DNA of 42,591 nucleotides from IMG/VR virus record IMGVR_UViG_3300036399_000964, positions 1-42,591 of that record; one strand, 5' to 3'. Positions 1,348 to 27,717 of this stretch are shown in pieces. The translations under genes and the position numbers were made by a program. The stretch is from a virus. The notes beneath the pieces are model-generated. The model ran no database searches and was not told the origin of the DNA. It saw only the letters and a list, made by a program, of their open reading frames with translations. How positions within the stretch are numbered: position 1 is the first letter of the stretch; every line of letters begins with the position of its first letter.

Positions 1348-1409
1348 ATTATTATTTTATTATATAAATAGTTTTTTATTTAAATTATTATAACAAGCAG
1401 TCAATTATT
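1345..1409. repeat. Duplicated gene-junction segment, copy A (copy B 5114-5178)
   Basis: The 65 bases covering a start codon, the whole intergenic spacer and the last codons of the preceding fibre gene match 5114-5178 except for two bases in one codon. The two segments separate different downstream genes. This suggests that the fibre module, including its expression signals, was duplicated. Confidence 0.8.
1363..1370 (-). promoter_or_regulatory. TATTTATA element upstream of the partial fibre gene
   Basis: On the coding strand the octamer TATTTATA, within ACTATTTATATAATAAAA, ends 15 nt before the ATG at 1347. The same element in the same place precedes nine of ten transcription-unit heads in this window, with a one-base variant at the tenth. 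A promoter or start-site role is inferred from that position. Confidence 0.5.
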
Positions 1410-4400
1410 TGAAATGGTATATTATATTCTTCAGTGCATGATAAATTTGCACCACCAAAACCACCTGCTGCAAGTCCTGCATTTTGTGTTCCTGCTCCTG
1501 CTGGACCATATCTTGCAGTTGCTAACGCACCACCTAATGACCAATTAGTTCCATTATATTCTTCTGTACAAGATACCTCCACATTAGAAAAACCTGATGA
1601 AACAAAACCCCCCATAGCAAGTCCTGCATTTTGTGTTCCTGCCCCTGATAATCTTTTTCTTATTGTTATCAATACACCCCCTGCTGACCAAGACGTACCA
1701 TCATATTCTTCAGTGCATGATACTGATTTTCCAGTTTGAGAAACATAACCTCCTATTGCAAGTCCTACATTCTGTGTACCTGCTCCTGGCGAACTCTGTC
1801 TTGCTGTTATCAATGCACCACCTGTTGACCAACTTGTACCATCATATTCTTCTGTACATGATACACTTCCTCCTACATACCCTCCAATAACAAGTCCTGC
1901 ATTCTGTGTACCTGCTCCTGCTAAACAATATCTTGCTGTTATCAATGCCCCCCCTGCTGACCAAGATGTGCCATTGTATTCTTCTGTACAACCTTGGCCT
2001 CCAAAACCTCCTGCTACAAGTCCTTCATTTTGTGTTCCTGCTCCTGCTAAAAGATCTCTTGCAACTATCAATGCACCTCCTGACGACCAAGACGTGCCAT
2101 TGTATTCTTCTGTACAAGTTACACGTCCATTTGTGATGTAACCCCCTGCTACAAGTCCTGCATCTTGTGTACCCATTCCTGCACCTGATCTTGCTGCTAT
2201 CAAAGCACCACCTACTGACCAAGCACCTTTATATCCATAATAAGACACCATAGGTTTTCTATTCACAGAATCAAACCATATACATAGTCCTGTTTCTGAT
2301 ATATAAGGTCTATCTGGATAGACTGCTGTATTATATGATGAGTCTAAACTACGGTCAACGATTTCGGTTGGTGCGTTGTATTCTTCTGTGCAAGAGACAC
2401 CTCCACCTACATACCCTCCTGCCACAAGTGTTTCATTCTGTGTCCCTGCTCCTGCTAATTGTTGTCTCGCATTTGCCAATGCTCCTCCTGCTAACCAAGT
2501 GGTACCATTGTATTCTTCAGTGCAGGCTACATTATCACTTGTAAACCCTCCTGCCGCAAGTCCTGCATTTTGCGTTCCTACTCCTGCTAAAGATCTTCTT
2601 TCTGCTATCAAAGCACCCCCTGCTGACCAAGATGTGCCATTATATTCTTCGGTACAAGTTACATTTGCACTTGTAAAACCTCCTGCTGCAAGTCCTGCAT
2701 TCTGTGTTCCTGCGCCTGCTAATAATCTTCTTGCAACTATCATTGCCCCCCCTGCTGACCAAGAACCTATCAATAGTGTGCTGCTCTTATAAGATATCAT
2801 AGGTACATTGTTTGCTTTATCATACCACAAACACATTCCTGCATCAACTAAGTTAGGTCTTTCAGAATATTCTGCTGTATTATATGATGAGTCTAAGCTA
2901 CGGTCAACAATTTCTATTGGTGCGTTGTATTCTTCTGTACATGCTCCACCTGCTGTACCTCCTGCTACAAGTCCTGCATTTTGCGTACCTGCTCCTGATA
3001 AAACATATCTTGCAGTTGTTAATGCGCCACCTACTGACCAAGATGTACCATTATACTCTTCTGTACATCCTGTACCTCCAACCCCTCCTGCAACAAGACC
3101 TGCATTCTGTGTCCCTGCTCCTGCTAAATAATATCTTGCAGTTATCAATGCCCCTCCCGCAGACCAACTTGTGCCGTTGTATTCTTCGGTGCATGATAAA
3201 TTTGAACCATTATTACCACCTGCAACAAGACCTGCATTCTGTGTCCCTGCCCCTGCTAAACCATATCTTGCTGTTATCAATGCACCACCTGCTGACCAAG
3301 ATGTGCCATTGTATTCTTCTGTGCAAGAGACACCTCCACCTACATACCCTCCTGCCACAAGTGTTTCATTCTGTGTCCCTGCTCCTGCTAAAATACGTCT
3401 TTCTGTTATCAATGCACCACCTGCTGACCATGATGTGCCATTGTATTCTTCTGTGCAAGAAACATTTCCATTTACATAACCACCTGCTACAAGTCCTGCA
3501 TTTTGTGTTCCTGCACCTGATAACCCAAATCTTCCTGTTATCAATGCACCGCCTGCTGACCAAGATGCTCCATTATATTCTTCTGTACAAGACACAGTAG
3601 CATTTGAATAACCCCCTGTTGCGAGTCCTGCATTTTGTGTTCCTGCTCCTGCTAAATCACTTCTTCCTGTTATCAAAGCACCCCCTGCTGACCAAGAACC
3701 TACTAATGATGTGTTAATACAATAAGAAACCATTGGCATCTTACTTGTGGTGTCAAACCAAATACACATTTTATCCGCATCTATTGGTGCTGGCCTTGAT
3801 TCTGATGATGTTATTAATGCACTTGTTCCAGATGAACCACTTCCACCAGTTACTCCACTACTACCACTACTTCCACTTGTTCCAGATGAACCACTTGCGC
3901 CAGAACTACCCGTACCACCACTTGTTCCAGATGTACCACTTGCTCCAGAACTTCCACTCGTGCCATCTGTTCCGCTTGTTCCTGATGAACCACTTGCTCC
4001 TGAACTTCCTGTCCCACCACTACTTCCACTTGTTCCAGAACTTCCACTCGTACCATCCGTTCCACTTGTACCCGAACTACCGCTCGTTCCAGATGAACCA
4101 CTAAGTCCTGCTAACACATCATATACAATTGAACTAACTCCAATCGTTGTTACATTTGTTGTTAAATAAAATATTTTTTCACCATTTGTGGATCCTGAAT
4201 ATACAAAAACTTGTTGTCCTATTTTAAAATCAGTTGAATTACTCGCATCACTTGCTCTAACCAAATTTGTATTTCCTGACACAATATATATTCCATTTTG
4301 TTCTGGTAATGATTGTTGCCAAACTAATATTCTATCATTATTAACCAAACCAACGCCATCTATGGTTGTAATTCCACTAAAAGATATGTTTGTTGTTGTT

Positions 4401-4468
4401 GCAACTTTGCATACTCCTTGTGTTGGGCTCAATTTAACTTGAGATTCAAAATTAATTTTAGTTAGCAT
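1388..4468 (-). CDS. Collagen-like/kelch-repeat tail fibre, 6+3+6 blades
   Basis: This 1026-residue protein probably forms a host-recognition fibre. Residues 1-121 are the phage tail-fibre head domain (CKVATTTNISFSG, DRILVWQQSLPEQNGIYIV), and about 122-213 a Gly-X-Y collagen-like tract of GSSGTSG and GTDGTSG units. The rest is kelch-like repeats of about 42 residues (SWSAGGALITAR, GAGTQNAGL, GG, CTEEYNGT). They come in three blocks of six, three and six, separated by about 50-residue spacers (EIVDRSLDSSYNTA, CLWYD, MISY). Its paralogue at 5157-8552 has 6+6+6, so the middle block has probably lost three blades. The protein ends IIDCLL. No chaperone domain is visible. It follows the 2OG oxygenase gene after a 60-nt gap carrying a TATTTATA element. 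Carbohydrate binding is plausible for such propellers but not shown. Confidence 0.88.
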   Translation of the reverse strand: MLTKINFESQVKLSPTQGVCKVATTTNISFSGITTIDGVGLVNNDRILVWQQSLPEQNGIYIVSGNTNLVRASDASNSTDFKIGQQVFVYSGSTNGEKIFYLTTNVTTIGVSSIVYDVLAGLSGSSGTSGSSGTSGTDGTSGSSGTSGSSGGTGSSGASGSSGTSGTDGTSGSSGASGTSGTSGGTGSSGASGSSGTSGSSGSSGVTGGSGSSGTSALITSSESRPAPIDADKMCIWFDTTSKMPMVSYCINTSLVGSWSAGGALITGRSDLAGAGTQNAGLATGGYSNATVSCTEEYNGASWSAGGALITGRFGLSGAGTQNAGLVAGGYVNGNVSCTEEYNGTSWSAGGALITERRILAGAGTQNETLVAGGYVGGGVSCTEEYNGTSWSAGGALITARYGLAGAGTQNAGLVAGGNNGSNLSCTEEYNGTSWSAGGALITARYYLAGAGTQNAGLVAGGVGGTGCTEEYNGTSWSVGGALTTARYVLSGAGTQNAGLVAGGTAGGACTEEYNAPIEIVDRSLDSSYNTAEYSERPNLVDAGMCLWYDKANNVPMISYKSSTLLIGSWSAGGAMIVARRLLAGAGTQNAGLAAGGFTSANVTCTEEYNGTSWSAGGALIAERRSLAGVGTQNAGLAAGGFTSDNVACTEEYNGTTWLAGGALANARQQLAGAGTQNETLVAGGYVGGGVSCTEEYNAPTEIVDRSLDSSYNTAVYPDRPYISETGLCIWFDSVNRKPMVSYYGYKGAWSVGGALIAARSGAGMGTQDAGLVAGGYITNGRVTCTEEYNGTSWSSGGALIVARDLLAGAGTQNEGLVAGGFGGQGCTEEYNGTSWSAGGALITARYCLAGAGTQNAGLVIGGYVGGSVSCTEEYDGTSWSTGGALITARQSSPGAGTQNVGLAIGGYVSQTGKSVSCTEEYDGTSWSAGGVLITIRKRLSGAGTQNAGLAMGGFVSSGFSNVEVSCTEEYNGTNWSLGGALATARYGPAGAGTQNAGLAAGGFGGANLSCTEEYNIPFQIIDCLL
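2376..2458. repeat. 83-bp exact direct repeat within the kelch fibre gene (partner 3309-3391)
   Basis: These 83 bases are identical to 3309-3391, 933 bp away. They encode the same NETLVAGGYVGGGVSCTEEY blade segment in block 1 (third blade) and block 2 (third blade). Surrounding blades differ, so this is a recent copy or the scar of recombination, not general blade similarity. Confidence 0.9.
2520..2579. repeat. 60-bp exact repeat shared with the paralogous fibre (7084-7143)
   Basis: These 60 bases are identical to 7084-7143 and encode GLAAGGFTSDNVACTEE in both genes. The blade sits second in block 2 here but sixth in block 1 of the paralogue. The different blade register argues for recombination between non-equivalent blades. 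Confidence 0.88.
2817..2935. repeat. 119-bp exact repeat shared with the paralogous fibre (6964-7082)
   Basis: These 119 bases are identical to 6964-7082 (offset 4147). They encode the spacer between kelch blocks 1 and 2 (EIVDRSLDSSYNTAEYSERP and following) in both fibre genes. The flanking blades differ, which suggests gene conversion or strong constraint on this spacer. Confidence 0.9.
3309..3391. repeat. Partner of the 83-bp repeat at 2376-2458
   Basis: This is an exact copy of 2376-2458, lying in the third blade of the first kelch block of the same gene. Confidence 0.9.
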
Positions 4469-4483
4469 AGTAATATTTTATTA

Positions 4484-4491
4484 TATAAATA
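4484..4491 (-). promoter_or_regulatory. TATTTATA element upstream of the 6+3+6 kelch fibre
   Basis: The coding-strand TATTTATA ends 15 nt before the ATG at 4468, in the same ACTATTTATATAATAAAA context as at 1363 and 5132. Confidence 0.5.
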
Positions 4492-4528
4492 GTTTTTTAT
4501 TTAAATTTGATTATATATAACCATATAA

Positions 4529-5116
4529 TTATTTATATGATGAACCGCCTAACCAAAGAACCAAAGATTTTCTAGTACCAGATTCAACAGGTGTAACACG
4601 ATGTAATGCAAATGATGGGAAAATAACCACTCGACCCTTATCTTTTGGTACAAATGTATCATTTTTACCATATTTTAAAATCAAATCTCCCCCAGAATAA
4701 TCATTAGGACCTGTAAGTTGCACTGTTATAGATATTTTTCTAAAACAAGATGGTGACGAATCACCACAATCAATATGCCAATCATACATTCCAGCATCTG
4801 AACTATCATATATGGTATATTGAATTTTCTCCAAATTGTCTCCAATGTTGAATTTCCACATAACATTATTTGCTTCTTCTGCGTAATTGAATAATTTCTC
4901 ATATATCCAAGCATATTCCCCATCATTGGGTAGCCATTTAATTGTACTCCTTCTATAATCATTAACATTATTAGGAGACCCTAAAACAGATGCATTTTCA
5001 GATTGTATTTTATCTGCTAATTTTTCAATTGCTTCTAATTCAATATCAGAAAACCCTGTTGCGAACGTGTAGTAATTTGTTAAATTTGGAACAAATTGCT
5101 TAAAACCTATTGCCAT
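4529..5116 (-). CDS. 2OG-Fe(II) oxygenase, prolyl-hydroxylase/PKHD-like
   Basis: This 195-residue protein has the double-stranded beta-helix signature of Fe(II)/2-oxoglutarate dioxygenases. His114 and Asp116 (DWHIDCGD) and His172 (FALHRVTPVESG) are the expected iron ligands. Arg182 (GTRKSLVLWLGG), ten residues after the distal His, is the expected 2-oxoglutarate anchor. The spacing resembles PKHD/PiuC-type and prolyl-4-hydroxylase-type enzymes, and the length is normal for single-domain members. Such enzymes hydroxylate protein or small-molecule substrates using O2 and 2-oxoglutarate. The gene lies between two collagen-like fibre genes and has its own TATTTATA element, so a fibre protein is an attractive substrate. 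The Gly-X-Y tracts are Ser/Thr-rich with almost no proline, so classical collagen proline hydroxylation is not supported. Family assignment is firm; the substrate is unknown. Confidence 0.9.
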   Translation of the reverse strand: MAIGFKQFVPNLTNYYTFATGFSDIELEAIEKLADKIQSENASVLGSPNNVNDYRRSTIKWLPNDGEYAWIYEKLFNYAEEANNVMWKFNIGDNLEKIQYTIYDSSDAGMYDWHIDCGDSSPSCFRKISITVQLTGPNDYSGGDLILKYGKNDTFVPKDKGRVVIFPSFALHRVTPVESGTRKSLVLWLGGSSYK

Positions 5117-5178
5117 ATTATTATTTTATTATATAAATAGTTTTTTATTTAAATTATTATAAGCAGCAGTCAATTATT
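5114..5178. repeat. Duplicated gene-junction segment, copy B (copy A 1345-1409)
   Basis: This segment covers the oxygenase start codon, the 40-bp spacer and the last codons of the 6+6+6 fibre gene. It matches 1345-1409 except for the two bases that make the penultimate codon Cys rather than Leu. Confidence 0.8.
5132..5139 (-). promoter_or_regulatory. TATTTATA element upstream of the 2OG oxygenase
   Basis: The coding-strand TATTTATA ends 15 nt before the ATG at 5116. The surrounding 40 bases are the same as upstream of the partial fibre at 1347. Confidence 0.5.
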
Positions 5179-8100
5179 GCTAATGCTTTGTTGTATTCTT
5201 CTGTGAAAGAACGAGTAACTCCACCTGAAAAACCTCCTGCTGCAAGTCCTGCATTTTGTGTTCCTGCACCTGCAAGTGGGCCGTATCTTGAATTTGACAT
5301 TGCTCCACCTGCTGACCAAGATGTGCCGTTGTACTCTTCAGTACAAGTTTCCTTTGTATATGATGCAAAAGCAATACCTTCGTTTTGTGTTCCTGCTGCT
5401 GCCAAATAAAATTTTGAAACTGTCATTGCTCCCCCTACTGACCAAGATGTACCGTTGTATTCTTCTGTGCAAGTAAGGGCTGTCCCCGCACCTGTGTCAC
5501 CTCCCATAGCAAGACCTGCATTCTGTGTTCCCGCTCCTGCTAATAATCTTCTTGCAGTTATCAACGCACCTCCTGCTGACCAAGATGTGCCATTGTATTC
5601 TTCTGTACATGAACAATATGCACCCCCCATAACAAGTCCTTCATTCTGCGTTCCTGCTCCTGCTAAAGCACTTCTTGCTGTTATCAACGCACCGCCTGCT
5701 GACCAAGATGTGCCATTATATTCTTCTGCACAGGTTAAGGCTGCATTTATAACACCTCCTGCCGCAAGTCCTGCATTTTGTGTTCCTGCTCCTGCTAATT
5801 CTTGTCTTGCTATTATCATTGCACCACCTGCTGACCATGTTGTGCCATTATATTCTTCGGTACAAGAAACTACACCTCCTGCTGTACCTCCTGCTGCAAG
5901 TCCTGCATTTTGTGTCCCTGCTCCTGTTAAATAACCTCTTGCCGTTATTAGTGCACCCCCTGCTGACCATGAACCAACACCTCCAAACCCATAGTAAGAT
6001 ACCATTGGTTTTCTATTAACAGAGTCAAACCACATACACATTCCTGTTTGTGCTATATAAGGTCTATCTGGATATTGTGCTGTATTATATGATGAATCTA
6101 AACTACGGTCAACGATTTCAGTTGGTGCGTTGTATTCTTCAGTGCAAGTTCTAGCAACACCACCTGCTGCACCTCCTGCTGCAAGACCTGCATTTTGTGT
6201 TCCTGCTCCTGCAAGTGGGCCATACCTTGCTGTAGCTAATGCCCCTCCTACTGACCAAGATGTGCCATTGTATTCTTCAGTGCAAGACATACTCACACCC
6301 GTATACCCCCCAAAAACAAGTCCTTCATTTTGTGTCCCTGCTCCTGTTAAATACGGTCTTGCTGTTATCAATGCACCTCCTGCTGACCAACTTGTACCAT
6401 TGTATTCTTCTGTGCAGGAAATAACCGTATTATATGTACCTCCCATAGCAAGTCCTGCATTTTGTGTTCCCGCACCTGCTAATAGTTGTCTTGCGTTTAT
6501 CATTACACCACCTACTGACCAAGATGTGCCATTGTATTCTTCTGTACATAATGCAGGAGAAGGAGTTCCTCCCATAGTAAGACCTGCATTTTGCGTACCT
6601 GCTCCTGCACAAAAATATTTTCCTGTTATAACTGCACCACCTGATGACCAACTTGTGCCATTGTATTCTTCTGTGCATAGTACTGCTACAGTTGTAAAAC
6701 CACCTGCTGCAAGACCTTCGTTTTGTGTTCCTGCTCCTGCCAAAGCATATCTTGCTGTTATCATTGCACCCCCTGCTGACCAACTTGTACCATTGTATTC
6801 TTCAGTACAAGTTAATAGATTAGTCCCACCAAAAGCAAGTCCTGCATTTTGTGTTCCTGCTCCTGCTAAATAACCTCTTGCTGTTATCAAAGCACCTCCT
6901 GCTGACCATGAACCCACTAATGATGTGCTGCTCTTGTAGGAAATCATTGGTATATTGTTTGTCTTATCATACCACAAACACATTCCTGCATCAACTAAGT
7001 TAGGTCTTTCAGAATATTCTGCTGTATTATATGATGAGTCTAAGCTACGGTCAACAATTTCTATTGGTGCGTTGTATTCTTCGGTGCAGGCTACATTATC
7101 ACTTGTAAACCCTCCTGCCGCAAGTCCTGCATTTTGCGTTCCTGCTCCTGCTAATGTATCTCTTGCCGTTATCAATGCACCCCCTGCTGACCAAGATGTG
7201 CCATTGTATTCCTCTGTATTAGATACACCAACACTTGTAAAACCTCCTGCCACAAGTCCTGCATTTTGTGTTCCTGCTACTGCTAAAGAGCTTCTTCCTG
7301 TTATTAACGCACCCCCTGCTGACCAAGATGTGCCGTTGTATTCTTCGGTGCAGGATAGAGATGTAGAGCCTCCTGCTACAAGTCCTTCATTCTGTGTTCC
7401 TGCCCCTGCAAAACTTCTTCTTCCCGTTATCAATCCACCACCTGCTGACCAAGATGTACCATCATATTCTTCTGTACATGATACACCTGCATTTACATAG
7501 CCTCCTGCTGCAAGTCCTGCATTTTGCGTTCCTGCTCCTGCTAAAGCTCTTCTTGCTGTTATCAATGCACCCCCTGCTGACCATGATGTGCCATTGTATT
7601 CTTCTGTGCAAGTTACATTATCACTTGTAAACCCTCCTGCCGCAAGTCCTGCATTTTGCGTTCCTGCTCCTGCTAAATTTCTTCTTGCTGTTATTAGTCC
7701 ACCTCCTGCTGACCAAGACGCACCATTGTATTCTTCTGTGCAAGTTACATTATCACTTGTAAACCCTCCTGCCACAAGTCCTGCATTTTGCGTTCCTGCT
7801 CCTACTAATAATCTTCTTCCACTTATCAACGCACCACCTGATGACCAAGAACCTACTAATGATGTGTTAATACAATAAGAAACCATTGGCATCTTACTTG
7901 TGGTGTCAAACCAAATACACATTTTATCCGCATCTATTGGTGCTGGTCTTGATTCTGACGATGTTATTAATGCACTTGTTCCAGATGAACCACTTCCACC
8001 AGTTACTCCACTACTACCACTACTTCCACTTGTACCCGAACTACCAGATGAACCACTTGCACCCGTGTTACCACTTGTTCCTGATGAACCGCTTGCTCCT

Positions 8101-8552
8101 GAACTACCCGTTCCCCCACTTGTGCCTGATGAACCACTACTCCCACTTGTGCCAGAACTTCCTGATGAACCACTTGTCCCATTTTGACCAGCAAGTACAC
8201 TAAATGATAATGAACTACTACCAATTGTTATATTGCCACTTGTGGTTAAATAAAATGTTTTACCAGAATAAGTTAATCCTGATAGTACCAAAACTTCAAT
8301 CCCAGCATAAACATCTTCATTAATATTCATATCATAATCACGAACCAAAGATGAACTTTCAACTCTATATATACCGTTATCTTGTTGTAGTGATTGATTC
8401 CAAACCAATATTCTATCGCCATAACTAACAGAAATACCATCAATACTTATTGGTAATGATGATAATGATACATCTAACGTTGTTGCAACTTTACATGGGC
8501 GTTTTTTTGTTACAGAAATATTCTGCCCATATAAATCAATTCTTGTTGGCAT
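5157..8552 (-). CDS. Collagen-like/kelch-repeat tail fibre, 6+6+6 blades
   Basis: This 1131-residue protein is a paralogue of the fibre at 1388-4468. Residues 1-121 form a diverged tail-fibre head domain (PCKVATTLDVSLSS, DRILVWNQSLQQDNGIYRV). About 121-192 is a GSSGTSG collagen-like tract. The next segment (ESRPAPIDADKMCIWFD) is nearly base-for-base identical to the paralogue. Three blocks of six kelch-like repeats follow (about residues 234-488, 542-800 and 857-1120), separated by spacers with DRSLDSSYNTA. This fits three complete six-bladed beta-propellers in series. The chain ends IIDCCL. Known kelch propellers bind proteins or glycans; here receptor binding is inferred. The gene precedes the 2OG oxygenase with a 40-nt gap. 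The start is supported by the upstream TATTTATA element and by alignment with the paralogous heads. Confidence 0.88.
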   Translation of the reverse strand: MPTRIDLYGQNISVTKKRPCKVATTLDVSLSSLPISIDGISVSYGDRILVWNQSLQQDNGIYRVESSSLVRDYDMNINEDVYAGIEVLVLSGLTYSGKTFYLTTSGNITIGSSSLSFSVLAGQNGTSGSSGSSGTSGSSGSSGTSGGTGSSGASGSSGTSGNTGASGSSGSSGTSGSSGSSGVTGGSGSSGTSALITSSESRPAPIDADKMCIWFDTTSKMPMVSYCINTSLVGSWSSGGALISGRRLLVGAGTQNAGLVAGGFTSDNVTCTEEYNGASWSAGGGLITARRNLAGAGTQNAGLAAGGFTSDNVTCTEEYNGTSWSAGGALITARRALAGAGTQNAGLAAGGYVNAGVSCTEEYDGTSWSAGGGLITGRRSFAGAGTQNEGLVAGGSTSLSCTEEYNGTSWSAGGALITGRSSLAVAGTQNAGLVAGGFTSVGVSNTEEYNGTSWSAGGALITARDTLAGAGTQNAGLAAGGFTSDNVACTEEYNAPIEIVDRSLDSSYNTAEYSERPNLVDAGMCLWYDKTNNIPMISYKSSTSLVGSWSAGGALITARGYLAGAGTQNAGLAFGGTNLLTCTEEYNGTSWSAGGAMITARYALAGAGTQNEGLAAGGFTTVAVLCTEEYNGTSWSSGGAVITGKYFCAGAGTQNAGLTMGGTPSPALCTEEYNGTSWSVGGVMINARQLLAGAGTQNAGLAMGGTYNTVISCTEEYNGTSWSAGGALITARPYLTGAGTQNEGLVFGGYTGVSMSCTEEYNGTSWSVGGALATARYGPLAGAGTQNAGLAAGGAAGGVARTCTEEYNAPTEIVDRSLDSSYNTAQYPDRPYIAQTGMCMWFDSVNRKPMVSYYGFGGVGSWSAGGALITARGYLTGAGTQNAGLAAGGTAGGVVSCTEEYNGTTWSAGGAMIIARQELAGAGTQNAGLAAGGVINAALTCAEEYNGTSWSAGGALITARSALAGAGTQNEGLVMGGAYCSCTEEYNGTSWSAGGALITARRLLAGAGTQNAGLAMGGDTGAGTALTCTEEYNGTSWSVGGAMTVSKFYLAAAGTQNEGIAFASYTKETCTEEYNGTSWSAGGAMSNSRYGPLAGAGTQNAGLAAGGFSGGVTRSFTEEYNKALAIIDCCL
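6964..7082. repeat. Partner of the 119-bp repeat at 2817-2935
   Basis: This is the identical spacer-coding segment, here in the 6+6+6 fibre gene. Confidence 0.9.
7084..7143. repeat. Partner of the 60-bp repeat at 2520-2579
   Basis: This is an exact 60-base match to a blade of the neighbouring kelch fibre gene. Similar copies of the same blade sequence, one or a few bases different, occur near 7610-7670 and 7740-7800 in this gene. Confidence 0.88.
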
Positions 8553-8574: not shown

Positions 8575-11500
8575 TTAATTGTTTTCTAATGCTTTTAATC
8601 TTGATTCCATATTGGTTATTAATTGTTTTTGCTCTTGTATTAATTGGTTTTGCTCTTGTATTGATTTTATTAACAATGGTACAAATTGGTCGTATCTTAA
8701 ACCTTTTATATCAGTTTCTGTATCATGGATGAATCCACCAAAATCTTTACCATCTAATAAGGTTTCAACTTCTTGAGCAATTAAACCATAATGTGTTCTT
8801 ATACCTTCTCTTGGTGTAATAACTTGTTTAGATTCTTCTTCACCATTCTCATTTATTATTGTTTCACTTGTTACTACATTTTGACCAACCTTCCATTTAA
8901 ATGATACAGGTCTTAATTTATTTATAAAATCTAAACCTAAATCGGAATCAACAATATCTTTCTTTTCTCTTTCATCAGATGTTTGTATTGTTCCAGTTGC
9001 TGCCCATACTGCTGACCACCTTATACCACTAGCACCTAATGAATATGCATTATCTGTACCTGGTTGAGTGTTACCCCCATTTGTAATGCGCATTCTTTCA
9101 ACAGAAGGCCCATTTGGTCTTGTATAAAAAACAAGTTCACCAAAAGCACCAGTGCCATTAACATTTACCGCACCTATAAGTCCAAGTTCAACATTATCCT
9201 GCCCTGTCATAGACCCATGAAACTTAATGGCTGGACCAAAACCAGCGGCAAAAGTTCCTGTGGTTTTTGCATTAACAAGTATTGTACTCACAATCGCATT
9301 TGTGGTTGAACTAGAGGTTAATACTTCCAATATTGACTGGGGTGATGTAGTTCCTATTCCGACGTTACCACTCTCTAATATAGTCATTTTTGCTGTTGCC
9401 GGAGAACCATTATAAAATTGTATTGGAGAAACACCTGCCCCAACACCCAACGCTAATGCACTGGACAGTTGCCCTGTATAATTAGGTGTGCTTAATCCCT
9501 GATTATTAGTTAGATACGCAGTTTTATTTGCGTTTCTAACCGCTATACTTGATGAAAACGCACCTTGATTATTAAACCATCCAACTATTTCATTTGCTGT
9601 GCCAGACCCCTCCACATGCAATTTATAAGCAGGAGACGTTGTTCCAATTCCAACGTTGCGATTTGATAATATAGTAAGAGCAGGAGTACTAAATGTACTT
9701 CCACCTGCTGTTGTTGAAGGTGTTATTTCTAAAGCATTATCTACATTCTGTTGAGATGCAATCATAAAGTTGTACTTGGTAGTACCACCTGTAAAATATA
9801 ATATTTTACCACCACCATCAGTACCTAATATTGATAATAAATTTCTTGCCGTAACACTACTACTAAATGTAGCTTCTCCTATTGAAGAAAAATTAAATAT
9901 ATCTCCTGCGGTTGTGTTTCCAGCATATAAACTTCCATTGCTATAAGAATTAAAATACCAACTTCTACCTGTTGTTGCCGTAGTATTATTAAGAAACAAT
10001 CTTAAATTTGAAGTTGTTTTTGATATTGTTATATCATCTCCTGCCGTTACACTACTAGAGAATGTAGCTGCTCCTGTGTTGTTTATTTGAAAATCAACAG
10101 TACCTGAAGTAACTGCACCTGCATTTCCTAAAGATGGGTCGGTAGTTGAATCAACCGACCTTATAATTGCAAAAGTAGTATTATTAACTGCATTAGTAAT
10201 CAGCCATCTTTTTGCTGCTGAAGTCCAAGAACTATCAGCGTTAAAAATTAATTTACCATAATCTCCATATCTATTTGAAACATCATAGTAATTAGAGTAC
10301 CCTTTTAATCTTGTAAGAGAAAGAGATGATTGAGTATTTGGACTACCACCTATTGTTAAATCTACACTAAACCTTCCTGTACCACTTACATCAAGTTTAA
10401 AACCACCAGTTGCAGTATTACCAATCCCAACATTTGTACCATCATCATATATAATACTATTACCAAGATTTGTTGTCCCTGTGAACTTTGGTATGTAATT
10501 ACTTGTTCCACTTCCAGATATTTGACTTACTGGGCTTGTTCCAGATGTTCCACTACTACCTGATGAACCACTTGTTGCGCTAGTACCCGAACTGCCAGAT
10601 GAACCACTACTTCCACTTGTCCCCAAACTACCACTTGTACCACTAGAACCGCTTGCACCCAAACTACCACTTGTTCCAGATGAACCACTTGTTGCACTAG
10701 TACCCGAACTTCCACTTGTTCCAGATGAACCATTATTACCTATAATAACACCACCATATATTTTTAATATACAATTGGGTGTTGGTGGCAAATTAGAACT
10801 ATTTATTACTAATGTTGTACCTGATAAAATTTCATAATCAATACTATATTGTTGTAATTGACCATTATAAAAAAACAAATGACTATTTGTTTCAACAAAT
10901 GATGATATTGTAAAAGTTCTATTACTATTATTTTGTGTTCCAGATATTGATAATTCAGTTAAAGGTGATGCACTAGTTCCACTACTACCACTTGTCCCAC
11001 TTGTACTTGATGTACCACTACTACCACTTACCCCCGAACTACCTGATGTACCATTAACACCAATAACTATACCCCCAAATACCTTTAATATATAATTATT
11101 TGTTGGTGCACGATTCACTGAACTAATTGTTAACTGATTTCCAGATATTGTATAATCAACACCATAATCTTGCAATTGTCCATTTATGAAAAATAAATGT
11201 GCCCCTTCATCAACTAATGAATCTAATGTATAAACTCTATTTGCCCCATCTTTGGCACCAGTTACACCAACTTCAGTTATTGGTGTAGGGCTAACCCCAC
11301 TTGTTCCTGAACTACCTGACGCACCAGAACTGCCTGTACCACCACTTGTTCCTGAACTACCTGATGTACCATCTGTTCCACTTGTTCCTGAACTACCTGA
11401 CGCACCAGAACTGCCTGTACCACCGCTTGTACCAGATGAACCACTACTCCCACTTGTACCAGAACTTCCAGACGCACCAGAACTTCCAGTGCCACCACTA

Positions 11501-13659
11501 CTGCCTGATGTCCCACTCGTACCAGACGAACCAGCAATCGCACCAACTGATGTTAATACAAATGAATAATATGATGTACCTTCTGTATAATATTTAATAT
11601 TATGATTTGTGCTATCTAAATTACTAACATATATCCTGACAATCATTCTATTTGTTGGGTCAATAGTTGTTGTTGGTAATACCAAATCCAAATTTGTTTC
11701 AATGGGAGTTACAGAATCGACCCAACCAATTAATGCTGTATTTGTTGGTATTGATGGGCCAATTGTCCCACCTGAAAAATTGGTTAATTGAATTTGAGCA
11801 TATGTTTCTAAATGATCATTACTTGCTGGTTTTAAGAAGTGTAAATGGAATCTTTGCGTACCCCCAGGTATAACAGCAAATCCCAATTGTGGTGTAATAT
11901 AATCAGAAATTAGTATATTATTTGTATTACCATTAATTAATGTTGTTATAATTGTTTGTGCCGCACCTGATGGTTCTACTGATAAAACTTTAAACCCACT
12001 AACATCTGAATTCTGACTTTCATTTAAATAATATGATTGACCTGCTGATATACCACTCACTCCACTTGAGCCTGCTGTACCGCTACTACCACTTGTCCCC
12101 GAACTACCAGATGTACCACTACTTCCACTTGTCCCCGAACTACCACTTGTTCCCTCTGTACCACTTGTACCTGTTGTACCGCTACTTCCACTTGTCCCCG
12201 AACTACCACTTGTTCCATCCGTTCCACTTGTTCCTGAACTACCTGATGTACCCTCTGTACCGCTTGTTCCTGACGAACCAGAACTTCCGCTTGAGCCTGA
12301 TGAACCAGAACTACCACTTGTCCCCGAACTGCCTGACGTACCCTCTGTACCACTCGTTCCCGAACTGCCTGACGTACCCTCTGTACCGCTTGTTCCTGAC
12401 GAACCAGAACTTCCGCTTGTTCCTGACGAACCACTACTTCCACTTGTCCCCGAACTACCTGACGTACCTTCTGTACCGCTTGTTCCAGAACTACCTGATG
12501 ACCCCGAACTACCGCTAGTGCCACTAATAAATGTCACACTATTATATAATTTTAAAATATCTGTACTTATTGGTGGTGATAAATAATTAATTAAAGTAAT
12601 TTCATCGCCATCAATAGTATAATCTTCATTATAATTCATCAACACACCATTTATAAAAAATAAATGATTCAACTCATTAATAATTGTCGATGCTGTGTAT
12701 GTAATATTTATACCATTCTTATCCCCAACCAAACTAATTTCTGCTAAAGGCGTGCCACTTGTTCCTGATGAACCACTTGCACCTGAACTACCCGTTCCCC
12801 CACTTGTACCTGATGTACCACTGCTACCTGTTTGACCTGAACTACCTTGACCTCCACTTGTACCTGATGTGCCACTGCTACCAGTTTCTCCAGAACTACC
12901 TTGTCCACCACTTGTGCCTGAACTCCCAGAACTACCACTCGTACCATCCGTTCCGCTTGTGCCAGAACTTCCACTCGTACCATTTACACCACTTGTTCCA
13001 CTTGTCCCTGACGACCCAGTTGCACCACTTACATTAACGCTAAAACCCGATATTGAAATAGTGTTACCTGAATTATCATAAAGATATAACATAGTTGTCC
13101 CTGAATTATATGTTCCACCTGTTACATATACTTCAGGATTAAACTCAATCCAATTTGCATTACCTCTTGTTACACCAGATATACCTTCAATTGTTGACCC
13201 AGTCCAAGCGTTCAATAATAATTTACCCTCATTAGTATTATCCAAACATTGATACCCAAAATCAATGTTAATTACCGAACCAACATTTAATGCATCATTA
13301 AATAATGTTTCATAATTTGGTATTTGATATTGATATGTTTTATTATTTTCATAAACGTATGCAACCATTCCAAGTTTTCTTCTACCAGAAGAAATACCAT
13401 CAGAATATAAATTTATAACGTTTGGTGCGCCATTTGGCGTATTATAACTAAAATCAATTGGAATTGTGTTGGCTGAATATAAAATTGTTCCAGTCGCACC
13501 AGTTGGTATTGTGAAATTTAAATCACTTAATGAAAAAACATCATAAAACCCCCCAACTTGGAATGAACTAAAATTGGATCCTGTATTTGACTCTAGTGGG
13601 ACACTATTTGGTCCAGCTAATACAACAGAAGATTTTGGATTTTTATAATTAAAACTCAT
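8575..13659 (-). CDS. Giant collagen-like tail fibre with C-terminal S74 chaperone
   Basis: This is a 1694-residue fibre. Residues 1-209 form a unique N-terminal domain, probably the virion attachment. Five Gly-X-Y tracts (about 210-305, 378-536, 705-790, 868-895 and 975-1043) alternate with three copies of a roughly 75-residue beta-type domain marked HLFFINGVLM, HLFFINGQLQ and HLFFYNGQLQ. After about residue 1050 come repeats typical of S74-dependent fibres (NVGIGTTSPAYKLHVEGSG, NVGIGTTSPQSILEV). The C-terminus is an intramolecular chaperone of the Peptidase_S74 family: TSDEREKKDI carries the Ser1561/Lys1566 pair at the endosialidase spacing. It is followed by LGLDFINKLRPVSFKW, GLIAQEVE and a terminal coiled coil. 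By analogy the chaperone trimerises the fibre and cleaves itself before Ser1561, releasing about 134 residues. It heads the fibre island and is preceded by a TATTTATA element. Confidence 0.92.
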   Translation of the reverse strand: MSFNYKNPKSSVVLAGPNSVPLESNTGSNFSSFQVGGFYDVFSLSDLNFTIPTGATGTILYSANTIPIDFSYNTPNGAPNVINLYSDGISSGRRKLGMVAYVYENNKTYQYQIPNYETLFNDALNVGSVINIDFGYQCLDNTNEGKLLLNAWTGSTIEGISGVTRGNANWIEFNPEVYVTGGTYNSGTTMLYLYDNSGNTISISGFSVNVSGATGSSGTSGTSGVNGTSGSSGTSGTDGTSGSSGSSGTSGGQGSSGETGSSGTSGTSGGQGSSGQTGSSGTSGTSGGTGSSGASGSSGTSGTPLAEISLVGDKNGINITYTASTIINELNHLFFINGVLMNYNEDYTIDGDEITLINYLSPPISTDILKLYNSVTFISGTSGSSGSSGSSGTSGTEGTSGSSGTSGSSGSSGTSGSSGSSGTSGTEGTSGSSGTSGTEGTSGSSGTSGSSGSSGSSGSSGSSGTSGTEGTSGSSGTSGTDGTSGSSGTSGSSGTTGTSGTEGTSGSSGTSGSSGTSGSSGTSGSSGTAGSSGVSGISAGQSYYLNESQNSDVSGFKVLSVEPSGAAQTIITTLINGNTNNILISDYITPQLGFAVIPGGTQRFHLHFLKPASNDHLETYAQIQLTNFSGGTIGPSIPTNTALIGWVDSVTPIETNLDLVLPTTTIDPTNRMIVRIYVSNLDSTNHNIKYYTEGTSYYSFVLTSVGAIAGSSGTSGTSGSSGGTGSSGASGSSGTSGSSGSSGTSGGTGSSGASGSSGTSGTDGTSGSSGTSGGTGSSGASGSSGTSGVSPTPITEVGVTGAKDGANRVYTLDSLVDEGAHLFFINGQLQDYGVDYTISGNQLTISSVNRAPTNNYILKVFGGIVIGVNGTSGSSGVSGSSGTSSTSGTSGSSGTSASPLTELSISGTQNNSNRTFTISSFVETNSHLFFYNGQLQQYSIDYEILSGTTLVINSSNLPPTPNCILKIYGGVIIGNNGSSGTSGSSGTSATSGSSGTSGSLGASGSSGTSGSLGTSGSSGSSGSSGTSATSGSSGSSGTSGTSPVSQISGSGTSNYIPKFTGTTNLGNSIIYDDGTNVGIGNTATGGFKLDVSGTGRFSVDLTIGGSPNTQSSLSLTRLKGYSNYYDVSNRYGDYGKLIFNADSSWTSAAKRWLITNAVNNTTFAIIRSVDSTTDPSLGNAGAVTSGTVDFQINNTGAATFSSSVTAGDDITISKTTSNLRLFLNNTTATTGRSWYFNSYSNGSLYAGNTTAGDIFNFSSIGEATFSSSVTARNLLSILGTDGGGKILYFTGGTTKYNFMIASQQNVDNALEITPSTTAGGSTFSTPALTILSNRNVGIGTTSPAYKLHVEGSGTANEIVGWFNNQGAFSSSIAVRNANKTAYLTNNQGLSTPNYTGQLSSALALGVGAGVSPIQFYNGSPATAKMTILESGNVGIGTTSPQSILEVLTSSSTTNAIVSTILVNAKTTGTFAAGFGPAIKFHGSMTGQDNVELGLIGAVNVNGTGAFGELVFYTRPNGPSVERMRITNGGNTQPGTDNAYSLGASGIRWSAVWAATGTIQTSDEREKKDIVDSDLGLDFINKLRPVSFKWKVGQNVVTSETIINENGEEESKQVITPREGIRTHYGLIAQEVETLLDGKDFGGFIHDTETDIKGLRYDQFVPLLIKSIQEQNQLIQEQKQLITNMESRLKALENN

Positions 13660-13733: not shown

Positions 13734-16700
13734 TTAAGAACAACCTCCATAATTAATTGTCATCGCACCATTAGAAGCGACCCCATACCTAAAACCACTA
13801 TCTGTATGGTAGAAATACAAGGAATAATTATTCCAGTCATCAATATTGTTTTGACAATTAGATAAAGTACGGTAGAATTTACCTCCAGCATCAAGAGAAC
13901 CAAGTGTTATTGTCCCTTTATAATAAAAAGTACTTGTTGTACCCGTACATGCACAAACAAGCGCACCTAAACCACAACCTATAATTGCATTACAAGTCGA
14001 ACCTATTGGTGTTTGTGATGGTGTTGGTGTAACGGTATTTGTTGGAGTAACGGTATTTGTTGGCGTATTAGTTGGAGTGTTTGTTGCTGTTTTAGTTGGA
14101 GTATTTGATGTTGTTGGTGTATTTGTTGGTGTATTTGTAGGTGTATTTGATGCTGTTGGTGTAATTGTATTTGTTGGTGTATTTGTATTTGAGGGAGTAT
14201 TTGTTGGTGTTGTTGTTTGTGTTGGTGTTATAGTTGGTGTTGGTGTTGGTGAAAGGCATATTGTATTACCTGTTATAGTACCTAAAGAATTAAACCCATA
14301 ACAAATACCATCTTTACCAAAAATTCTTTCCCCTCCCCAAGTTGAGGCATCACTAGTTTCACAAGAATTTTGGAATTTATAATATGTAGAACCATTTGCA
14401 CCATTAAACGTTGAATATCTTCCCCATATAAATGCATTTGGTGTGTTACAAACTGTTGAACAATCATTTAACTCACTAATATCTCTGCGAACTGAAAAAA
14501 GTTTACATAATGGTAATGTAGGTGTGACTGTTGCTGTTGGTGTTGCTGTATTAGTTGGTGTTATTGATGGTGTAGGCTGAACAACACAACTAACACTTTG
14601 TGATATTTGTATAATACCATTACTACACATAAATGAATAAGAACTTAATGTATCTGAAATTGATTTTGCATTATAATAAATAGAACCAGTTAAATAATCA
14701 CATGATGAAGGTGATGTTTCAACATTTGATATATTTTGTTTACACATTGTTTCACCATATGAAGGGACACTAATATTGAAATAAATATTATCATTTGTAG
14801 TTAATGGAGTTCCAGATGGGACTCTAACATAACCTGTAAATGTATTACCAGTTATTGGACAATTATTATTATAAGTTAGATTTGAGGCTGTAAATGTCCT
14901 AGCATAACAAAAAACTGTTGTTGGTGTGACTGTTTGTGTTGAGGTAACTGTTTTTGTTGGCGTTATTGAAGGTGTGTTAGATGGTGTTGATGTTGGTGTA
15001 ATTGAAGGTGTGTTAGATGGTGTGTTAGATGGTGTTGATGTTGGTGTAATTGTTGGTAGTGGTGTGACACCAGTACATGGAATTGCAGCATATGACCCTT
15101 GAAGGGGTAAATAATGCCTCCAAGGTGTAGGACTTGAAAAGTCAGTAAAAAAGCTAATAAATGTATAACAAATTCCATTTAATATTGCTTTAAATGGTTC
15201 ATTTGTGAACCCACTTGTACCAAAAGAATCAACACCACTTGGTCCATTACTTAAACAAGCTGAATTAGTTTCATAAATTTCTATATTATTAAGTGTACCA
15301 CTTAAATTTGCAAATGCACTATAAATTGTAAATGTTGTTGGTGATCCACCATTACAAGCATCTGTACAACCTGTCCAAGATGTATAATAATTACCAGTAT
15401 TTGCTTTGCTAAATGTATGGGCATAACAAAATGGTGTTACTGTTGGTGTTATAGTATTTGTTGGTGTGTTTGTTGGTGTTATAGTATTTGTTGGTGTATT
15501 TGTTAGTGTTATAGTATTTGTTGGTGTGTTTGTTGGTGTTATAGTTATTGTTGGTGTTATAGTTCTTGTTGGTGTTATTGTGTTTGTTGGAGTATTTGTT
15601 GGGGTATTTGTTGAAGTAATTGTTGGTGTTGGTGTTGGCAAAATAGTTGGGCAAGATAACACCATTTCAAAAACCCCTCCAATTTCTTGACTGACTACTT
15701 GAACATTAACAACTGTTGGGTAATTTAATGTCTTTGTGAATCCAGAGGAAACATAACCATTAAAAGTATTTGAACTAATAACAGTTGATGAATTCCAAAC
15801 CACATTAAAACTTGCATTAGTATTTGTAACAATATCTATAACAATAGGACCAGTATTAACACCAACATCAAATGTGTAATTATAATTTGCTTTTTGACCA
15901 ATATTATTTACAATATTTGTATCACAATTTGCAGTAAAACTATAATTACCATAACTTGTTGGTGTTTGTGTATTCGTTGGTGTTTGCGTGTTAGTTGGTG
16001 TTTGGGTGTTAGTTGGTGTATTTGTTGGTGTTGGTGTATTTGTTGGTGTTGGTGTATTTGTTGGCGTAGATGTATTAGTTGGTGTAGATGTATTAGTTGG
16101 TGTAATAGTGCTAGTTGGCGTATTTGTTGGTGTTTCACTATTGGTTGGGGTAATTGTGTTAGTAGGTGTATTAGTAGGCGTAACCGTATTTGTTGGTGTA
16201 TTTGTTGGTGTTGGTGTATTTGTTGGCGTAGATGTATTAGTTGGTGTAGATGTATTAGTTGGTGTAATAGTGCTAGTTGGCGTATTTGTTGGTGTTTCAC
16301 TATTGGTTGGGGTAATTGTGTTAGTAGGCGTATTAGTAGGTGTAACCGTATTTGTTGGTGTATTTGTTGGTGTCTCAGTAGGTGTAGGAGTATTTGTCGG
16401 TGTTTCAGTAGGTGTAGGTGTGTTTGTTGGTGTCTCGGTATTTGTCGGAGTAATCGTATTTGTCGGAGTAATCGTATTTGTCGGAGTAATGGTATTAGTT
16501 GGTGTATTTGTCGGTGTTGATGTGTTAGTTGGTGTTGTCGTATTAGTTGGTGTTTGAGTATTTGTAGGTGTATTTGTGCTTGTAGGTGTAGGTGTGTTTG
16601 TTTTTGTAGGAGTATTTGTTGGCGTAACCGTATTTGTTGGTGTATTTGTATTTGTTGGTGTGTTCGTATTTGTAGGCGTTGGCGTCTTTGTTGGAGTTGC

Positions 16701-17996
16701 AGTATTTGTTGGTGTTGGTGTTGGTGTAACACATAAAGTTTTACCTGTTATAACCCCAAGCGAATTTGTGGCATAGCAGTAATCATCTTTACTAAAGTTC
16801 TTTGCTTCTACCCAATTACTATCATTATTATTCAAACATGATTCAAAATCAATATAATATTTTTGGCCAATTTCACCGTTAAATAAATTTGTTTTTCCGC
16901 ATATTTCGGTATTTGATGGTAATCCACAAACACCATAACAAGATAATGTAGCTGGGCTTGATGAATCTAAATAGACATCAAAACAATTGCAATTATTTAT
17001 ATCTGGAATTAATGAATTACCTCTAAAATATAACTTATTATTATTATTCATTAATCTAAAATTCGTATTGCTAAATGTTGTATAAACATGATAATAATCT
17101 TGTGGAATTGTAAGTCCACTATATATTACAGTTAAGCCAGCATATAATAAATTTGTGGCTACTGGTACTAATGCAGCAGGATCACTATATTCATTAACAC
17201 CAATATTACTAACAAGATTATTGTTTGTATTTAATTTAGGTATAACCCAAGTGTACCAAGAATATCCAGTTGTTAAATATGCTGGCACTTCATGTGTCTT
17301 AAACAAATATGCTTGAATTAAATTACCATAATCATCAAATCCACCACTAGTTTGTGATATTTTTGCTGTTCTAACTTGTGGAGCATTTACCCCCCAACCA
17401 GAAAATGATATATATCTATTAAGTTGACTACTAAATGTATCACCGCTTGTTGATGGTCCAATACCATTTGAAAATCCCCTAAATAAACTACCTCCAGATG
17501 ACATCCAAGAATTAAATTCCAAATTCAAACTGACTGGCTCAATAAATAAATAAGCATCATATTCTTCTGGTGATGTTGGAGTAACTGTTGGCGTTATGGT
17601 CGGTGTTGAAGTGTTTGTCTTTGTTGGAGTTAAAGTTGGTGTTTGTGTATTAGTTGATGTTATTGATGGCGTTGGCGTCTTTGTTGGCGTCTTTGTTGGT
17701 GTCTTTGTTATAGTTGGTGTTATGCTTATAGTTGGTGTTATAGTTGGTGTTGGAGTTGGAGTTGTACATAATATTTCAACTGTTACACCAAATAAAAATT
17801 CATCTCTTGTTATATTAGTATATATTGGCACACTATTAATTGTATCCAAATATACATCAAATGGACCTTTTGAATGTGATGATGAATTTAATTGTAAGAA
17901 ATACCTTGAACAAGAAGTAACACCTGTTATGATGTTCTCAATGCTATTTTCGCATATTGGATCAGTATTTATTACAATTAATTTATATGTTGCCAT
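13734..17996 (-). CDS. Thr-Pro-linker beads-on-a-string structural protein
   Basis: This 1420-residue protein alternates globular, often Cys-containing domains with low-complexity Thr-Pro linkers of TPTNTPTNT type. Linkers fall at about residues 78-140, 421-680, 784-858, 977-1024, 1139-1162 and 1250-1332, giving seven globular beads. Several beads begin alike ([23 protein letters not shown]) and contain paired cysteines; the last one, [19 protein letters not shown] onward, ends YGGCS. The longest linker contains an exact-type 162-bp tandem duplication. Thr-Pro linkers resemble secreted mucin-like or bacterial surface linkers and could be O-glycosylated, but I see no glycosyltransferase here. 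The stop codon of the 183-aa gene abuts this start, so it is the last gene of the operon that starts at 24577. I infer a surface-exposed tail or fibre protein; no named family is recognised. Confidence 0.85.
16030..16373. repeat. 162-bp tandem duplication in the Thr-Pro linker
   Basis: Two copies of a 162-bp unit lie head to tail (about 16030-16191 and 16192-16353, with partial extension to 16373). They differ at two silent-type C/T positions within the block read. Each encodes 54 residues of TPTNT-type linker including the markers [13 protein letters not shown] and [11 protein letters not shown]. The length is a multiple of three, so frame is kept. Confidence 0.88.
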
Positions 17997-18548
17997 TTAA
18001 CAATTTATTATTTTGAAAAAACTACAAGAATCCACATCTTTTATGGTAACAATAACTTGATTTGACCCAGAAAATCTATTAGGTACATCAATACTCACGG
18101 GTAATATTCCTGTATTCGTTATTGTTGCAACATAAGTTTCATAATTCCCATTTATGTCTGATACATAAATACCAAATGGTGGCGTTCCTGTTATACTTGT
18201 TAAAGTTATTTTATTATTTGATGTTGCAATTGGAATATATCCAGGTGTTGAAGATGGAGTTGGTGTTGGAGTTGGTGTTATTGATGTTATATTTGTTATA
18301 CTATAAACAATATCGCAATCTATATAACAATTTAATTTCTTTGTTGTTCTGCACCCCTCACTATCTTGAATAATAATGGTAACTTGTGGAGATGAATTAA
18401 ATATAATAGGTAAACTATATGTTATATTACCAACCAAAGGCAATGATGTTACTTGACCCAGATAGGTCTCATTACCCCCAAATGCATCAGATACATATAT
18501 ATTTAAAGGCGTTGTTCCACTTATACTACTAATGATGATGTTTGTCAT
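17997..18548 (-). CDS. Two-domain structural protein with Thr-Pro hinge
   Basis: This 183-residue protein consists of two similar beta-rich repeats of about 75 residues. The first has TTPLNIYVSDAFGGNETYLG, the second TPPFGIYVSDINGNYETYVA. They are joined by a short [15 protein letters not shown] hinge at about residues 92-106. Each repeat ends in a QVTIIIQDSEGC or QVIVTIKDVDSC motif, like the end of the SprB-like repeats in the neighbouring 719-aa protein. The start overlaps the upstream stop by four bases (ATGA), and the stop abuts the next start, so it is translationally coupled on both sides. I infer a small tail adhesion or adaptor protein; the exact role is unknown. Confidence 0.8.
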   Translation of the reverse strand: MTNIIISSISGTTPLNIYVSDAFGGNETYLGQVTSLPLVGNITYSLPIIFNSSPQVTIIIQDSEGCRTTKKLNCYIDCDIVYSITNITSITPTPTPTPSSTPGYIPIATSNNKITLTSITGTPPFGIYVSDINGNYETYVATITNTGILPVSIDVPNRFSGSNQVIVTIKDVDSCSFFKIINC

Positions 18549-27159: not shown

Positions 27160-27717
27160 TTATGTACAATTTTGATTAAATACTATTAAGTTATTAGATG
27201 AATAATACCTTAACTCTGTCGCTGATGGTGTTGGTGTCGGAGTTGGTGTTACACTATTGGTAGGCGTAACTGTTCTTGTTGGTGTTGTAGTTACAGTTAT
27301 AGATGGTGTTATAGAAGCTGTTGGTGTCATAGATGAAGTTATAGATGGAGTTGGCGTATTACTTGAGGTTATTGTCGGTGTGGTTGTTTTAGTTGGTGTT
27401 ATAGTTGGTGTAACCGTACTAGTTGGGGTAACCGTAGGTGCATTAGTTCTAGTTGGAGTTGGGGTAACAGTCTTGGTTGGTGTAGGGGTTGGGGTACTAG
27501 TTTTTGATGGTAGGGGGAAGCCTTCTATTAATCCGCTATGAGAAAACCTAACTACTTCATAATCAATTACTGCGTTGATAGAGTTACTTAATATATCCTC
27601 ACCGTAACTATTTATCGTATCTTGTTGACCAACATTATCAAAATCCATCTTAATGGGTAAACTTATTGTTATATCATTAAGTTTAGGTTGTAGTAATCTA
27701 TATTTATTCACACTCAT
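27160..27717 (-). CDS. Structural protein with long Thr-Pro tail
   Basis: This 185-residue protein has an unrecognised globular N-terminus of about 72 residues. A roughly 95-residue low-complexity Thr-Pro tract follows ([17 protein letters not shown] type, with [15 protein letters not shown]), then a short end [17 protein letters not shown]. The tract is the same kind of linker as in the 1420-aa and 183-aa proteins. The start overlaps the end of the upstream 554-aa gene by 14 bases, which supports coupling. The downstream neighbour carries the Fib_succ_major domain, so this may be a flexible tether for a displayed domain. That role is inference. Confidence 0.8.

Follow-up and report, generated by a model that had tools for sequence, protein, structure and literature searches.

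Association of a phage 2OG-Fe(II) oxygenase gene with collagen-like tail-fibre genes and its probable role in fibre maturation

Results and discussion

The stretch of viral DNA analysed in this study (IMG/VR virus record IMGVR_UViG_3300036399_000964, positions 1 to 42,591; 42,591 nucleotides, in the following referred to as the window) harbours on its minus strand (4529-5116) a gene for a 2-oxoglutarate (2OG)-Fe(II) oxygenase, designated OX, which is located between two genes for collagen-like fibres. OX is probably a PKHD-type hydroxylase belonging to a fibre-maturation set, and its most likely substrates are the collagen-like tail-fibre chains of the phage itself. These chains would be hydroxylated in the cytoplasm of the host, before or during assembly of the virion. 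In many relatives, the same set includes a lysyl hydroxylase (LH) of the LH3/PLOD type, which is fused to glycosyltransferase domains and would act on lysine in position Y of the Gly-X-Y triplets. In the phage of the window, a lysine of the tracts cannot be the target of OX, and proline is an unlikely one. The fold, the conservation of the catalytic residues, purifying selection and the association of the subfamily with collagen genes were computed; from these we infer the reaction, its substrate and its timing.

Properties of OX

OX (195 aa, ATG start) is a PKHD-like member of the PF13640 2OG-Fe(II) oxygenase superfamily according to its profile, its metal triad with the accompanying arginine and its fold. 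In a Pfam profile search it matched PF13640 with an E value of 7e-13 and 49.8 bits (cutoff 27), and it matched phrog_61 (2OG-Fe(II) oxygenase) with an E value of 7e-32. His114, Asp116 and His172 form the HxD...H triad of Fe ligands and Arg182 is the 2OG-binding residue; these residues had been named correctly in an earlier reading of this DNA made without database searches (the sequence-only reading), and they do not vary in two alignments, one with 13 and one with 31 homologues. The AlphaFold2 model (pLDDT 84, pTM 0.83) exhibits a double-stranded beta-helix fold and gave 485 PDB matches at E <= 0.001, with 6n1f, 3dkq and 4iw3 at the top. The best matches are PKHD-type enzymes, the EF-Tu-bound prolyl hydroxylase of Pseudomonas (4iw3) and HIF prolyl hydroxylases; the viral collagen prolyl hydroxylase 5c5t of a chlorella virus ranked 45th. 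A phmmer search of OX against the PDB sequences returned no LH-type sequences, only PKHD enzymes and one prolyl 4-hydroxylase (P4H).

In comparison to its copy on contig L002, the OX gene shows 10 DNA differences, all of which are silent (10/10), and comparisons with the copies of L003, L006 and L007 yielded dN values of 0.09-0.16 and dS values of about 1.6-1.8. This pattern of change indicates that the intact gene is under strong purifying selection and is functional.

Association of OX with collagen-like genes

The position of OX between two collagen-like fibre genes, as proposed by the sequence-only reading, was confirmed, and both flanking genes (1388-4468 and 5157-8552, minus strand) exceed the Pfam Collagen cutoff (PF01391, 40.4 and 31.6 bits; cutoff 27.2). 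For a genome survey, IMG/VR viral contigs were searched first with the OX protein and then with an alignment; the search patterns were derived from the oxygenase alone and were therefore not biased toward collagen neighbours. Among 73 phage loci with an oxygenase 45-52% identical to OX, a collagen-like gene was present in 71 and directly adjacent in 68, where it was nearly always located upstream of OX on the same strand, about 40-50 bp off. Counted per oxygenase cluster (90% identity), a collagen-like gene occurred in the locus in 22 of 23 cases and was adjacent in 21. In contrast, the controls comprised 80 more distant phage relatives, with a collagen gene in the locus in 6 and adjacent in 2, and 79 bacterial relatives, mostly of Bacteroidota, with a collagen gene in the locus in 2 and adjacent in none. 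A survey without any link between this oxygenase subfamily and fibre genes had been named beforehand as an outcome that would speak against the proposed role; the association was found (68/73 adjacent versus 2/80 and 0/79), and it is real and, for the subfamily as a whole, strong.

Sister phages sharing a gene for a 387-aa structural protein behind the cassette were also compared. Where OX was present, the collagen gene was located immediately upstream in 20 of 20 cases; where OX was absent, it was found in 0 of 26 within the stretches seen, some of which were short. Five contigs of 34-162 kb that share the structural gene and lack OX gave no collagen match anywhere. Furthermore, the pairing recurs in several gene orders (fibre-OX-family 2 glycosyltransferase (GT2)-fusion, fibre-OX-sheath, fibre-OX-fibre, and Thr/Pro protein-OX-fibre), and many collagen-like genes likewise occur in the 735-kb phage LR756501, whose OX is 40% identical. 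T4-like cyanophages and pelagiphages encode 2OG-Fe(II) oxygenases (T4-GC 412 among others; phrog_61) that belong to the broad family of OX, with 30-36% identity, and lie near baseplate and fibre genes; unlike the OX phages, these phages had no collagen-like genes in the records checked, and the same applies to the roseophage records checked with OX relatives in this identity range.

Two side observations were made during the survey. In LR756501.1 (L100, L370, L371), the collagen-like genes are of the Ser/Thr type and very large, with open frames of up to 3488 aa, and are accompanied by the OX homologue. In a Chromatiales metagenome-assembled genome (L124, MDLA01000162), an OX relative and a Gly-X-Y frame are two genes apart, and another part of this genome encodes an LH homologue with 61% identity to the phage LH; perhaps this is a viral contig in the bin.

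Homologues of animal collagen-modifying enzymes in related operons

In contigs of marine T4-like phages, the usual gene order is collagen-like fibre, OX, GT2 and a fusion protein. The C-terminal domain of the fusion matches human LH3/PLOD3 (E 5.9e-34) and mimivirus L230 (E 1.8e-19) and keeps the HxD...H...R residues, its N-terminal part is GT4-like, and longer versions contain a middle domain which matches procollagen galactosyltransferase 1, COLGALT1 (E 1.8e-13). Such fusions, GT4-like and LH3/PLOD-like and in some cases also COLGALT1-like/GT25, are encoded near collagen-like genes with lysine at Y at L060:11850-13526, L062:11854-14220 and L364:17175-19457 (and in G005 and G007). On the contigs of L003, L006 and L008, the LH fusion is present about 10-14 kb from a collagen-like gene. 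Neither the window nor the 72-kb contig L002, both of which may be incomplete, contains an LH homologue or fusion. Judged by domain matches, enzymes that truly modify collagen have clear homologues in the related operons. It is likely that the cassettes modify collagen-like fibres, because this sister enzyme is present; OX is the more widespread component.

If the fusion modifies Gly-X-Lys, the lysine content at Y should depend on its presence, and therefore both were compared, using one genome per oxygenase cluster and some added cases. Of the 18 genomes with the fusion, 16 reached 6.5% lysine or more at Y, and none of the 12 genomes where no fusion was found exceeded 1.9%; for short contigs, no fusion means that it was not at the usual place and could lie elsewhere. 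Two genomes with the fusion are exceptions: L059, which offers 19 triplets, and the L008 contig, whose truncated fibre has 94. The fibre of L309, which has no fusion, is free of lysine. For LR756501, which has no fusion, the outcome was predicted before the measurement, and 2340 triplets contained no lysine. Among all residues at X or Y, lysine at Y was the best separator of both groups. A by-product of overall composition was ruled out, as the background lysine content was 6.0% with and 5.4% without the fusion (p 0.09). On well supported branches of a tree that carries long-branch warnings among its outgroup rows, four independent pairs agree or do not differ and none is opposite; these are too few to be significant by themselves. 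When the presence of GT2 was compared with tract composition by eye, no clear pattern emerged. On these compositional grounds, the fusion enzyme probably makes hydroxylysine, possibly in glycosylated form.

Mobility of OX and alternative substrates

Several observations weigh against a function of OX in fibre maturation. The adjacency counts share ancestry and are not phylogenetically independent. In L003-L009, which carry an OX 74-83% identical to that of the window in a different backbone, the gene is located tens of kb from collagen genes, beside a subtilase gene; four of these contigs do carry collagen-like genes at that distance. L075 contains OX and no collagen match across its 93-kb contig. 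Microcystis phage Mel-JY01 encodes collagen-like proteins of the Ser/Thr type and lacks both OX and the LH fusion; therefore, fibres of this kind do not require OX. Lastly, no single tract residue is an established target of 2OG hydroxylases across all OX phages. Strict conservation of the adjacency of OX and fibre is ruled out by L003-L009. The proposal of the sequence-only reading that the phage hydroxylates its own adhesion proteins was upheld in part: the association with fibre genes and the collagen-enzyme homologues of related operons agree with it, while universal adjacency and a general role of the Thr-Pro-rich linkers as targets were not supported.

The OX genes of the window and L002 are 98.3% identical at the DNA level, in comparison to about 70% for those structural genes upstream of the fibres that could be aligned, and the sole DNA match of the window to L003-L009 is the OX gene itself, extended by the 5 bp preceding it and about 12 bp following it. 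These identities indicate that the OX gene has moved between phages. That the moved gene lies beside collagen genes in the window and in L002 is suggestive of a functional coupling; because of their shared origin, both placements count as one observation.

Such gene-sized transfer between unlike phages, together with the other neighbourhood in L003-L009, would also suit a mobile accessory gene which acts on a host or metabolic substrate and for which the tail-fibre region is merely an insertion hot spot. Prolyl hydroxylases of the fold of OX are known to act on EF-Tu or a ribosomal protein, and the match of the OX model to the EF-Tu-complexed enzyme 4iw3 points in this direction. For 2OG oxygenases of marine T4-like phages, which are common in hypervariable regions, roles in nitrogen and 2OG metabolism or in DNA repair have been published (PMC3037559). 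We consider this explanation unlikely, since it accounts neither for the other phage PKHD relatives, which are not beside collagen genes (2/80), nor for the coincidence of OX loss with the absence of the collagen gene in sister phages.

It is still less probable that OX and the neighbouring glycosyltransferases act on a glycan of the fibre or the host envelope, so that a sugar or lipid and not a peptide is hydroxylated. The genes for GT2 and the glycosyltransferase fusion are located directly downstream of OX in most related operons, and in pelagimyophages, a role in envelope modification was ascribed to the glycosyltransferases of the host-recognition region (PMC7029224). On the other hand, no glycosyltransferase gene adjoins OX in the window, L072, L089 and L090, the nearest solved relatives of the fusion are collagen enzymes and not envelope enzymes, and sugar- or lipid-hydroxylating enzymes do not occur among the top structure matches listed for OX.

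Target residue of OX

If OX hydroxylates the fibre chains, it should act on something other than the lysine probably used by the fusion, because OX occurs with and without the latter. The tracts of the window had been described as Ser/Thr-based and almost free of proline, which was borne out: its 194 triplets contain no lysine and one proline. Lysine is ruled out as the target of OX, which occurs in many phages with lysine-free tracts. Tract proline, which amounts to about 1% or less in several OX phages, is ruled out as a general target for the phage of the window and others such as L032. Threonine is the sole tract residue that is never scarce in the OX phages examined, with 7.7% of triplets as its minimum; as a universal target in the tracts it is no more than suggested by this, and to our knowledge no protein threonyl hydroxylase of this family has been described. 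A site outside the Gly-X-Y tracts is equally possible.

The sequence-only reading had also considered three Thr-Pro-rich proteins as substrates. Thr/Pro runs were confirmed in the 1420-aa linker protein (13734-17996, minus strand) and the 185-aa protein (27160-27717, minus strand), and the third protein (17997-18548) remained below the run threshold used. That OX hydroxylates proline in these linkers in the lineage of the window is very improbable: the linkers are dense in proline, and in L002 OX is preceded by a gene whose product is related to the N-terminal part of the 1420-aa protein, but Thr/Pro runs are confined to the window and L002 lineage. The fibre regions of the remaining OX phages examined show no such runs or negligible ones, and OX is retained without these linkers in phages related to LR756501, L089 and L099.

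Comparison with known systems

The PKHD hydroxylases Sbal_3634 (3dkq) and PiuC (9ghl) resemble OX over the catalytic core (E 4e-9 and 2e-6) and share its fold and ligands. Unlike the phage OX, the bacterial PKHD members are chromosomal, and the sampled bacterial OX relatives are not located beside collagen genes. The fusion of the related phages is a direct homologue of mimivirus L230, a collagen lysyl hydroxylase-glycosyltransferase, and of the animal enzymes LH3/PLOD3 and COLGALT1. L230 works like the proposed phage set, in that a virus-encoded 2OG hydroxylase and a glycosyltransferase act on viral collagen. OX differs from L230 and LH3 in not being of the LH type: there is no LH sequence match, and lysine occurs in 0 of the 194 triplets of its partner tracts. 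The hydroxylase vCPH of PBCV-1 (5c5t) is likewise virus-encoded and similar to OX in fold (22% identity); its substrate is unlikely to be shared, since the tracts of the window hold almost no proline. The same applies to collagen P4H, for which proline in the Gly-X-Y tracts of the substrate is characteristic (1 of 194 triplets in the window). The prophages of E. coli also encode collagen-like proteins, which are, as in the window, Gly-X-Y tail proteins of phage genomes; unlike for the OX phages, the abstract of the publication reports no hydroxylase cassette (PMC3368898).

The hydroxylation and glycosylation of collagen are usually attributed to animals and to a small number of large viruses of eukaryotes. 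Among the open-access publications searched, none dealt with a collagen hydroxylation encoded by phages. OX belongs to an established enzyme superfamily, and its setting appears not to have been described in these publications. The strongest result concerns the relatives, which encode phage homologues of animal collagen LH and galactosyltransferase beside phage collagen, with a lysine content that tracks their presence. At somewhat less than an even chance, uncultivated phages may modify the collagen of their own fibres by a pathway of two hydroxylases, the PKHD-type OX and the LH3/PLOD-type enzyme, together with glycosyltransferases of the collagen type that are homologues of the animal enzymes; OX, as the more widespread component, would work in the phage of the window on Ser/Thr collagen free of proline and lysine, modifying a residue for which hydroxylation in collagen is not known.

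If the homologues encoded beside the collagen-like fibres of phages are functional, virion maturation gains a step dependent on oxygen, iron and 2-oxoglutarate. The many 2OG oxygenases that are still unexplained in the fibre regions of phages would gain a candidate substrate open to testing, and the evolution of PLOD and COLGALT would have to be reconsidered. In addition, small and possibly soluble phage enzymes could aid the production of modified recombinant collagen.

Fibre genes of the window and further observations

All collagen-like genes of the window are located on the minus strand. The fibre downstream of OX (1388-4468, 1026 aa) contains 32 uninterrupted Gly-X-Y triplets followed by repeats of about 50 aa, and its paralogue upstream of OX (5157-8552, 1131 aa) contains 24 uninterrupted triplets. 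In 2000 shuffles of the composition of the 1388-4468 protein, the longest Gly-x-x run was 8. A third collagen-like fibre (8575-13659, 1694 aa) has runs of up to 53 triplets and many PHROG tail-fibre matches, and a fourth (1-1347), of which 449 aa are present as the gene is cut by the window end, has a run of 37 triplets. For such proline-free Ser/Thr tracts, a triple-helical trimer may depend on modification or on cold, or the tracts may adopt a different fold.

Upstream of OX lies an AT-rich 20-bp spacer, ACTATTTATATAATAAAATA (5122-5141, minus strand), which occurs in identical form at 4474-4493 and 1353-1372. The three matches in the window, compared to 0.21 expected, precede only OX and the two downstream fibre genes, and the 20-mer is possibly a promoter shared by these genes.

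The repeats of about 50 aa (GAGTQNAGLAAGG...CTEEYNGTSWS) behind the Gly-X-Y tracts of 1388-4468 and 5157-8552 match phrog_27227 (unknown function), and three tandem genes of L002 (17686-20569; 312-323 aa) contain repeats which resemble them. On the same contig (L002:14321-17649), three more 2OG oxygenase genes (PF13640, and PF13759 twice) and a sulfotransferase gene are located behind a collagen-like gene. In some marine fibres, such as the collagen-like fibre L060:2891-6154, the start is weakly similar to the intein splicing domain PF14890 (E 0.0014, below the cutoff). In the window, part 340-518 of the frame for the large subunit of ribonucleotide reductase (37090-39840) matches the endonuclease phrog_4645 between reductase parts, which suggests that the insert is an intein or a similar element.
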